From NCBI RefSeq assembly GCF_038397785.1, contig NZ_CP151642.1:1240001-1304000 (forward strand): DNA of 64,000 nt, given 5' to 3'. Source of the DNA: Salinibacterium sp. TMP30 (GTDB lineage: Bacteria > Actinomycetota > Actinomycetes > Actinomycetales > Microbacteriaceae). A program made the position numbers and the translations under genes. The notes beneath the pieces were generated by a model. The model was not told the origin of the DNA, made no database searches, and saw nothing but the letters and a program-made list of their open reading frames with translations. Shown in pieces: positions 46,101 to 48,485 of the stretch; the stretch's first letter is position 1; the number at the start of each line of letters is the position of its first letter.

Positions 46101-46468
46101 TCACCATCCTCGCCACAGACGGAACGGCCGAGATTTTGGCTCGCAACGGCATTGAAGCTCACGTGGTCCGCAAGTACTTTATGGGCCAAGAGGTCGATGC
46201 TGACGAGCCGTCGATTGTTGAGCTCATCAACGAAGGCAAGGTGGATGTTGTCATCAATACGCCGAGTGGACGAAGCGCTCGTGCGGATGGCTACGAAATT
46301 CGCACAGCGACCGTGGCGGCGGACAAGCCAATCTTTACGACCATCGCGCAACTCGCCGCCGCCGTGGCATCGTTCGAAGCGATTCGAGATGGCTTCGATG
46401 TGCGGTCGCTTCAGGATTACGCGCTTGATCGTGCAGCGGAACTCGAGAAGGTAGCAAACAATGCCTAG
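43154..46468 (+). CDS. carB: Carbamoyl phosphate synthase, large subunit
   Basis: Makes carbamoyl phosphate for both UMP and arginine. At 1104 residues it has full length: two ATP-grasp halves, each with its pre-ATP-grasp region ([19 protein letters not shown] and [19 protein letters not shown]), the oligomerisation domain, and the C-terminal MGS-like allosteric domain (about 940-1104) that carries [19 protein letters not shown]. No break or frameshift. Its 3' end overlaps pyrF by 8 nt. Confidence 0.97.
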
Positions 46469-47303
46469 TTTTGCGTCCCGACTAGCCGCCACCTTTGAGG
46501 AGTATGGCGGCGTCTGTATGGGCATCGACCCGCATCCTTTCTTGCTCGAAAGTTGGGGACTATCTAACGACGTTCACGGTGTTCGCGAATTCACGTTGCG
46601 TGCAGTGGATGCCGCAGCAGGCAACGTAGGAATGATCAAGCCGCAGGTGGCCTTCTTCGAACGCTTCGGTTCTGCCGGGTATGCGGTGCTCGAGGAGTCG
46701 TTCGCCTTGGCGCGTTCGGCAGGACTGCTGGTGATCGCGGATGTGAAGCGCGGCGATCTTTCGTCGTCTGTTGAGGCCTATGGTCAGGCTTGGCTCACGC
46801 CGGGATCGCCATTGGAAGCGGATGCAATGACTGCGGTTGCGTATCAGGGTGTGTCGGAGTTATCCGGGCCCGTGGAACTCGCGAGAGCGTCAGGCAAGGG
46901 CATTTTTGTCCTTGCGGCCACCTCGAATGCTTCGGCCTACAGCATCCAGTCTGCGCGTATTGTTGAGGGCGAACACGAGGGTGCCACGGTGGCGGCAAGC
47001 ATTGTTCGTGATGTTCGTGCCCTGAATTCAGAGGTCGGCCTCGGGTCGTTTGGTGTGGTTGTCGGTGCCACAGTAAATGTTGCTGACTTTGGCATGCGCG
47101 GTGAAGAATTGATTGACCTGCCGGTATTGGCGCCGGGATTCGGCGCGCAGGGAGCCCAGGTCGAGCAGGCGCGCGAGTTATACGGTGCCGCTGTTGCGAA
47201 CACGATTGTCACCGTGTCGCGAAGCGTTCTCCAAGAGGGATCGAGCCAGATTCCGTCGGAACTGCGTTCTTTGCGCGAACAACTCCGTGAGCAGGTGCGC
47301 TGA
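46461..47303 (+). CDS. pyrF: Orotidine 5'-phosphate decarboxylase, type 2
   Basis: Last step to UMP. The 280-residue protein is of the longer type 2 group typical of actinobacteria, with [22 protein letters not shown], the catalytic [13 protein letters not shown] (Asp94, Lys96 and Asp99) and the C-terminal [13 protein letters not shown]. It overlaps carB and, by one base, the start of gmk. pyrE and pyrD are not in this window. Confidence 0.95.
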
Positions 47304-48232
47304 TGGGTCCTCGTCCGGAGCCCCCAGAGGTTGATCGTGCTGCTGCGTCACGTGCTGCGGTAGCCGCTCGCCGCGCTCGAGCTTCCGTCAAACGTGAAGT
47401 CGCTGAGCGCGCACGAACCGCGTTGAGCGTTGCGCGCACGGGGTGGTCGACTCCCGAAAGCCCTGAAGCACGATTGTTGGTGCGCGAACTTTTGCTCAGT
47501 GTGCCATCCCTCGGCCCGACCAGAGTAGAAAGTATCATGGATGAGCTCGCGATTGCGGAGCGCAAACGCGTTGGCGGCCTGGGTTCGAAGCAACGTGATC
47601 GACTTGCCGCGTACCTTGCGGATCGCCAGGGCCCTGAGCCGACACGCCTCGTGGTGCTAGCTGGCCCGACTGCAGTTGGCAAAGGAACGGTTTCGAGCTA
47701 CATCCGGGAGAATCATCCGGATGTCTTGCTCAGCGTTTCTGCGACAACGCGAAAACCTCGACCGGGGGAGATCGACGGAGTTCACTACTATTTCGTCAGT
47801 GACGACCGGTTCGATGAGATGATCGCCGACAATGAGTTGCTTGAATGGGCTGTGGTGCACAATTCTTACCGGTACGGCACGCCACGCCCGCCGATCGATG
47901 CTGCTCTTGCAGAAGGCAAACGCGTTTTGCTCGAGATCGACCTGCAAGGTGCGCGCTCCGTACGCAGCGTAATGCCCGAAGCTCTATTGGTGTTCTTGTT
48001 GCCGCCAACGTGGGAAGAATTGGTGCGTCGATTGATCGGTCGTGGCACCGAAGATGCTGCCGAACAGGCTCGCAGATTAGAGACCGCAAAGGTCGAATTG
48101 GCGGCTCAAGAAGAGTTCGATGTGAAGGTCGTGAACACAGAAGTAAGCCGAGCGGCTCAAGAAGTCGTAGAATTGATGGATGCGCCCGCTGGCGCGACCA
48201 CTTCCGACTCCAAGGAGCACTCCAATGGCTGA
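47303..48232 (+). CDS. gmk: Fused actinobacterial integration host factor (mIHF) - guanylate kinase
   Basis: Single frame of 309 residues with two parts. Residues about 9-105 match actinobacterial m[23 protein letters not shown] (basic helix), then [20 protein letters not shown] (helix-hairpin-helix) and [17 protein letters not shown]. Residues about 114-300 are a complete guanylate kinase that converts GMP to GDP, with P-loop GPTAVGKG (121-128), [20 protein letters not shown] and the lid [17 protein letters not shown]. In other actinobacteria mihF and gmk are adjacent separate genes. There is no stop codon, internal start with ribosome binding site, or frameshift between the parts here. It overlaps pyrF by 1 nt and rpoZ by 8 nt. 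Nucleoid binding and kinase activity in one chain is an inference. Confidence 0.9.
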
Positions 48233-48485
48233 CAAGAACTCGGGCATCATTGATCCCCCCATCGACGAACTGTTGACGAAGGTCGACTCGAAGTACCAGC
48301 TCGTAATCTTTGCATCCAAGCGGGCTCGGCAGATCAACGACTACTACGCAGACCTCCACGAGGGAAGCCTGTTCGACAACGTCGGACCACTCGTTGACTC
48401 GACGATTGAAGACAAGCCACTCTCCGTTGCTCTTCGCGAGATCAACGAAAACAAGCTCGAGCTCAAGCGACTCAGCGGCGAATAG
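48225..48485 (+). CDS. rpoZ: RNA polymerase omega subunit
   Basis: Small subunit that stabilises beta' and takes part in assembly of RNA polymerase. The 86-residue product begins [17 protein letters not shown] and contains [17 protein letters not shown], the conserved MOTIF region. AAGGAG at 48212-48217 is spaced 7 nt from the ATG at 48225, which overlaps the gmk stop by 8 nt. Position after gmk is conserved. Confidence 0.94.

Follow-up and report, generated by a model that had tools for sequence, protein, structure and literature searches.

An integration host factor domain joined to guanylate kinase in Microbacteriaceae, and a second fusion of independent origin in the acI family

The guanylate kinase (Gmk) of Salinibacterium sp. 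TMP30 carries an additional N-terminal domain, homologous to the actinobacterial integration host factors mIHF of Mycobacterium (Rv1388; PDB 6tob) and sIHF of Streptomyces (SCO1480; PDB 4itq). The gene was found in the window, by which we mean the whole stretch of 64,000 nucleotides that was analysed. Most Microbacteriaceae have the arrangement, and it has arisen a second time, independently, in the acI family, whose members are common in fresh water. The IHF part of the Microbacteriaceae proteins is diverged and under purifying selection, and some relatives have deleted it. An earlier reading, made from the sequence only, had recognised the fusion; the divergence of its IHF domain, the deletion in some relatives and the independent acI fusion were not noticed in it.

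The fusion gene and its distribution in Microbacteriaceae

The gene is a single frame, read from ATG to TGA at 47303-48232 (+) with no internal stop, and it stands directly between pyrF and rpoZ. Its parts and neighbours are as follows.

46461..47303, + strand: pyrF, directly upstream of the fusion (TIGR02127, 234 bits), with a one-base overlap (TGATG) with the fusion's ATG
47303..48232, + strand: mihF-gmk fusion gene, ATG start, TGA stop, 309 codons
47333..47617, + strand: actinobacterial-IHF domain (mIHF/sIHF type), aa 11-105 (NF041260, 67.2 bits; PDB 4itq and 6tob)
47336..47392, + strand: N-terminal basic helix (a helix by analogy), aa 12-30 (from column counts)
47471..47608, + strand: H2TH / helix-hairpin-helix part, aa 57-102 (Pfam H2TH_5)
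47618..47638, + strand: short linker, about aa 106-112 (from the domain borders and the DNA)
47639..48187, + strand: guanylate kinase domain, about aa 113-295 (TIGR03263, 215 bits; PF00625; PDB 1znw)
47663..47686, + strand: GPTAVGKG, aa 121-128, which we take to be the P-loop (from the sequence)
48225..48485, + strand: rpoZ, directly downstream of the fusion (TIGR00690, 72 bits), with an 8-base overlap if its start is the ATG at 48225

The N-terminal part matches NF041260 (NCBIfam actino_IHF) over model positions 9-101 of 102, with 62.3 bits for the whole protein and 67.2 bits for the N-part alone; the protein is thus over the curated cut-off of 60 bits, and aa 11-105 are covered. A search of PDB sequences with the N-part returned sIHF (4itq, E 3.9e-10) and mIHF (6tob, E 3.2e-9), plus one chance match at E 0.31. 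For the C-terminal part, TIGR03263 (guanyl_kin) matches aa 115-292 with 215.3 bits, over its curated cut-off of 160.45, and the best PDB match (E 1e-56) is 1znw, presumably the Gmk of M. tuberculosis, the other matches being guanylate kinases as well. Pfam places H2TH_5 at aa 57-102 and Guanylate_kin at aa 114-293. These profile and PDB matches bear out the sequence-only reading, which had described a complete mIHF and a complete Gmk in one frame of 309 codons; GPTAVGKG is seen where it had put the P-loop, and the flanking matches (TIGR02127, TIGR00690) agree with the order that it gave, pyrF-[mihF-gmk]-rpoZ. Alignment of 16 chains taken from the two fusions (Microbacteriaceae and acI) leaves G121, P122, V125, G126, K127, T129, R150, R153, Y162, E181, Y191, T193, R243, R247 and R258 invariant, and we take these 15 residues to have catalytic or substrate-binding roles.

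The window protein therefore shares with other Gmk proteins (TIGR03263; 1znw) the whole kinase domain with its P-loop, and differs from an ordinary Gmk in the extra DNA-binding-type domain of about 112 residues at its N-terminus. That domain is not a free mIHF of about 105 residues from a gene of its own; it is in frame with Gmk. Since the NCBI model type of NF041260 is equivalog_domain, its curators allow an IHF domain inside larger proteins, and a fused member is allowed under the model. In M. tuberculosis, gmk and rpoZ come after mihF (PMC6155035, in excerpt), which is the order of the window.

The genome, a single contig of 2,685,429 bases, is 99.97% complete. PF00625 and actino_IHF each match it once, in the fusion ORF, and since there is no other PF00625 match the fusion kinase is presumably active. 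A separate mihF elsewhere, which the sequence-only reading had named as a reason for doubting the fusion, is absent from the complete 2.69-Mb genome at E 0.001. As to other nucleoid proteins, a profile search of the complete genome found one match for HU and none for Lsr2.

The family survey found actino_IHF at E 0.001 or better in 368 of 398 genomes. In 362 the match is at 4.8e-11 or better; the remaining six, at E 2e-4 to 9e-4, resemble a cross-match to ribosomal protein S13 and were counted as genomes without the domain, by analogy with the S13 read in locus L110. All the actino_IHF matches listed in the family are in open frames of at least 236 codons. Because long frames arise by chance in G+C-rich DNA, 57 loci were read for a true fusion, and 56 of them have both domains in one frame. 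With the same frame open across the junction in these 56 loci, the window's included, a sequencing error or frameshift at the junction is very unlikely and is rejected. The suggestion that the fusion may be a family trait rather than unique to one genome has accordingly held up, the survey across Microbacteriaceae having been proposed along with it.

The exception is L021 (G308), where the halves are in different frames and are separated, at about 1700-2080, by additional sequence that contains a stop. This is either a natural split or an assembly fault; the four congeners read (L008, L011, L012, L013) are all fused. A real IHF match is present in 79 of the 85 family genera sampled, or 81 if genera g11 and g14, with weak matches only, are counted. 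A scan of named genomes with the joined query gave 19 loci, and those nearest the window's (Salinibacterium sp. PAMC 21357, marine actinobacterium PHSC20C1, and Salinibacterium sp. SWN167, SWN248 and NG253) are fused in all five cases. Eighteen other family genomes have a second, weak actino_IHF match, 17 of these at 19.7-23.4 bits and one (G212) at 28.8 bits. Two of these were read: the match in L110 falls on ribosomal protein S13, identified by eye, and that in G212 (L109) lies in a 326-aa ORF with no Pfam match at E 0.1. We propose that the fusion originated by loss of the border between neighbouring mihF and gmk genes in an ancestor of the family.

There are 36 family genomes without a real IHF match (30 with no match at all and the six weak ones), and 26 of these were examined. 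Gmk is present in 20 of the 26, and the 1.5 kb around it contain no IHF match; in the remaining six, each less than 90% complete, no gmk was found either. The upstream DNA was read at 11 of the 20 gmk-only loci, and shows the end of pyrF (by eye) with gmk alone following closely, except that in L081 other genes precede gmk. The ten loss rows, of the 20, that were included in the Gmk tree require at least two changes; at least two lineages have deleted the IHF domain, leaving Gmk alone. The 17 loss genomes that are at least 90% complete are of 1.2-2.4 Mb. Gmk without the IHF domain is seen at loci L063-L082 in genera g11, g14, g66, g71 and g82, and no convincing mIHF match was found elsewhere in the genomes that hold these loci. 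The function of the domain can therefore be dispensable, since relatives that have deleted it show no mIHF match in its stead. This differs from M. tuberculosis, where mIHF is essential (PMC6155035, in excerpt).

Two further observations concern these relatives. In L082 a stretch rich in Ala, Pro and Thr precedes Gmk where the IHF domain would be. Genus g31 (L100, L102, L104, L105), near one of the loss clades, has a fused IHF part in which R85 (sIHF numbering) is replaced by A in all four loci, and R86 by T in L100, L102 and L105, R86 being kept in L104. Other conserved residues are also replaced, as if the g31 domain were decaying.

The second fusion, in the acI family

Outside the two groups the genes stay apart. 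None of the 47 loci holding both genes in other families of the order, and none of the 16 in other families of the class (the acI family apart), has them in one frame; the listed frames of more than 250 codons outside both fusion families were all read in the class survey, as were those of more than 225 codons among the matches listed in the order survey. A survey of the phylum (149 genomes, 137 with a match) listed no other frame of 250 codons or more, except a weak paralogue in G864.

Several side observations come from these surveys. In the order survey no mIHF match was obtained from any of the 14 genomes of family f4, and two or three mIHF-type matches (paralogues) occur in G610, G633, G682, G704, G864 and G945. 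At locus L157 (G430) the domain matches of the separate gmk gene are spread over two frames that overlap, which looks like a frameshift of the assembly. In L137, from a large actinobacterial genome, an IHF-like H2TH domain shares one ORF (1452-2594, - strand) with a MarR domain. This resembles the window protein in that the H2TH domain is a module of a larger ORF, and differs in its partner, which is no enzyme but a DNA-binding domain of the MarR type; the L137 ORF was read from stop to stop.

The second fusion is in family f44, which we read as the acI family ('Ca. Nanopelagicales'); among the named-genome loci, L164 is from BACL15 MAG-120619-bin91, which NCBI assigns to the 'ac1 cluster'. 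The first ten f44 loci read are all fused, as are the ten named-genome loci nearest acI (L158-L161, L164 and L168-L172), and four 'Frankiales' MAG loci have mihF and gmk separate. The public MAG records behind L160 and L168 are labelled Bifidobacterium breve and have acI-type loci; the labels are probably wrong. The IHF domain is found in 98 of 101 acI genomes. Judged by frame length, 69 look fused (at least 249 codons), 27 separate (105-154) and two ambiguous. A further 40 loci, 20 and 20 picked on frame length, were read and proved to be 20 fused and 20 separate, giving 30 fused and 20 separate in all. Fusion-length frames occur in 11 of the 17 acI genera.

The acI protein has the same two domains in the same order as the window protein, with a similar linker length and the same pyrF-[fusion]-rpoZ neighbourhood; Pfam matches around L158 give pyrD-pyrF-[mihF-gmk]-rpoZ-coaBC-metK. 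The origin is independent, and the acI IHF part is nearer to free mIHF, at 121-123 bits against 62 in the window protein.

The case for independence comes from trees. One shared origin with acI is rejected with the Gmk set (p-AU 0.0481) and with IHF plus Gmk (p-AU 0.0437, the long-branch rows L083, L100, L125, L135 and L136 having been left out beforehand). When the separate acI genes are included, in a test of 65 chosen rows, a tree with family Gmk and fused acI Gmk as one clade is rejected at p-AU 0.000247, with a log-likelihood lower by 104. Rejection of the one-clade tree implies that adjacent mihF and gmk genes fused independently on two or more occasions. In the same 65-row tree, the 22 acI Gmk rows are on one side of a branch (99/95); support for the Microbacteriaceae clade is 39/0 there and 99/92 in another Gmk tree. 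The tree of the IHF part alone, built on few columns, resolves little, and the acI fusions are not all placed on one side of a branch in it.

Within acI the deepest branches have separate genes, and the 26 fused rows and nine separate ones form one inner clade (100/99). A single fusion inside acI is compatible with the data (p-AU 0.363): either the genes fused once and were split again twice, or they fused more than once. Genera g236 and g242 (L202-L210) have separate mihF and gmk within the mostly fused clade, a possible case of re-splitting. No paper describing the fusion, in either group, was found in the open-licence literature, outside which most subscription journals lie. It is the independent second origin in acI that is new here, and it would surprise a specialist.

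Divergence and selection in the IHF part

Residues are given below in sIHF numbering, counted from the PDB-search alignment with sIHF. The fused IHF part scores 44-84 bits across the family, compared with mostly 120-150 bits for free mIHF elsewhere in the order, so that the window's (66 bits) has about half the bits of the free protein; nine of 28 family genomes have fused domains below the 60-bit cut-off, at 44-59 bits. Similarly low scores are found for mIHF in short frames, with 82-93 bits in some families of the class and 42-95 bits in the phylum. The IHF/Gmk distance ratio is 1.60 in the family (a set of 57 in which the window's genome is counted twice, as L001 and L002, and L021 is left out) and 0.38-1.62 in families with free genes, f18 having 1.62 from three rows. 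The family's ratio is higher than that of most free families, though not unique, and the short-frame scores of 42-95 bits together with the f18 ratio show that such divergence is not peculiar to the fusion.

The pattern of kept and lost residues is uneven. R22, R25, K29, G68, L90 and Q94 are present in all 57 rows of the family, and among 65 free domains their conservation is 95-100%; the first three are R23, R26 and K30 of the basic helix at aa 12-30 of the window protein. In the 57 rows, R85 is K in 91% and R86 is kept in 87%, and against this K17 has become A in 91%, R88 G in 85% and K69 P in 66%. K33 and K54 are mostly lost, K54 being R in 29%, the window among these (its R57). The window protein itself keeps R22, R25, K29, R71 and R86, with R85 as K and K54 as R, and has lost K17, K33, K69 and R88. 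It thus differs from mIHF and sIHF, which are free proteins (about 107-109 residues in the PDB chains), in being fused, in being more diverged and in lacking several conserved basic residues. The first ten acI fusions keep K17, K33 and K54 in nine of ten, and K69, R85 and R86 in all ten. The median net charge is +8 in 56 fused family domains, +8 in 10 fused acI domains and +6 in 63 free domains.

Selection on the IHF part was assessed from pN/pS. Five sets of fused family genes, two of which overlap, give 0.08-0.26; one acI set gives 0.20, and three sets of free genes give 0.08-0.18. Values of 0.08-0.26 mark the IHF part as a selected protein domain and not a degenerate leader. GC3 is slightly lower in the IHF part than in Gmk, in free and fused genes alike, and is therefore uninformative on abundance.

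Function of the joined chain

Our preferred reading, which we think probably correct, is that the chain is bifunctional: the only GMP kinase of the cell carries its only mIHF-type domain, and the N-half makes a weak contact with nucleic acid. Once the gene border had been lost in an ancestor, the kinase half would act as an ordinary Gmk, as predicted from its domain, and the N-half would fold as an mIHF H2TH domain held by selection. The N-half most likely touches nucleic acid through the basic helix and the H2TH part, weakly and with no sequence preference. In this connection, sIHF is described as monomeric and as binding DNA with no preference for particular sequences (PMC10028186, in excerpt); excerpts of PMC3724605 report M. 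tuberculosis mIHF itself as a homodimer, and no shift of plasmid DNA by sIHF alone.

For the enzymes of B. subtilis, S. aureus and E. coli, GMK is described as dimeric, with the lid and the (p)ppGpp response set by contacts between the partners (PMC6783271, in excerpt). If the Gmk of the fusion were a dimer of this kind, each molecule would carry a pair of DNA heads, and the Gmk lid could come within reach of DNA or partner contacts. In M. tuberculosis, mIHF ranks among the ten most abundant proteins, and its deletion is polar on gmk-rpoZ (PMC6155035, in excerpt). Made one-to-one with an enzyme, the fused domain is unlikely to be a very abundant architectural protein as in mycobacteria; that role should end with such production, which would fit both the divergence and the losses. 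Against a bifunctional chain, K17, K33, K69 and R88 are lost in most family rows of the alignment, as is K54 though not in the window protein, and some relatives have neither the IHF domain nor any other mIHF match.

It may also be that the fusion is a tolerated accident, in which each half retains or loses its former function on its own and the tether as such has no effect. We regard this as rather unlikely, if by no means far-fetched, and it overlaps with the bifunctional reading and does not exclude it. Neighbouring, coupled genes fuse easily, the IHF domain has been deleted in at least two lineages, and the different frames of the L021 halves and the possible re-splitting inside acI agree with an idle tether. 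An accident sits less well with two independent origins, or with the retention of the fusion in 79 of 85 family genera (by IHF match) and 11 of 17 acI genera (by fusion-length frames). Persistence of the fusion does not, however, prove benefit.

That the IHF part no longer binds DNA, and has been turned into a domain for the regulation or assembly of the kinase (acting for example on the Gmk dimer, the lid or the (p)ppGpp response), seems to us unlikely. The loss of the same four basic residues, and a bit score about half that of free mIHF in the order, would fit repurposing, as would the role of GMK dimer contacts in setting (p)ppGpp sensitivity in other species (PMC6783271, in excerpt). Nevertheless R22, R25 and K29 are kept and the overall charge is kept or raised, Gmk persists in relatives without the domain, and the first ten acI fusions retain K17, K33, K54 and K69 in nine or ten cases, and R85 and R86 in every one.

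Very improbable is the reading in which the chain is cut, or Gmk starts at an internal codon, so that the working proteins are separate: it would draw on the GTG codons 117-118 of the window gene (the first possible starts after its linker, inside the first Gmk strand by analogy, where the Gmk fold begins) and on the GTG or TTG found in 20 of 56 fused family genes within the stretch of 17 codons preceding that strand (ATG in 13 and GTG or TTG in 24 of 30 fused acI genes), but ATG occurs there in only two of the 56, the window's linker (47618..47638) has no ATG, GTG or TTG codon, and the linkers are short, with 22-44 residues separating Gln94 from the P-loop in Microbacteriaceae, mostly part of the two folds, and 25-37 in acI. 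The codon count is a weak test, since free gmk genes have ATG in the same stretch in only 13 of 59 (GTG or TTG in 30 of 59; four of 63 genes were dropped, the P-loop pattern having missed them), and free acI gmk genes in 16 of 20.

A bolder extension of the bifunctional reading, which we think improbable, is that a DNA-anchored GMP kinase has been reached twice. The Gmk dimer would make a low-affinity mIHF into a two-headed DNA binder, with the nucleotide state or (p)ppGpp altering DNA binding, or DNA altering the kinase. If true, chromosome structure would be coupled to the GTP pool.

A protein that is essential and very abundant in M. tuberculosis is present here solely within a metabolic enzyme that is itself essential, and is missing altogether from some relatives. 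The plain label 'guanylate kinase' in Microbacteriaceae and acI can conceal a DNA-binding-type domain. Having arisen twice independently, the arrangement is less likely to be a freak of evolution. In the acI family, where fused genera occur next to genera with separate genes, nature itself supplies a direct comparison. The arrangement makes it testable whether a nucleoid protein and an enzyme of the GTP pathway gain from being one molecule.
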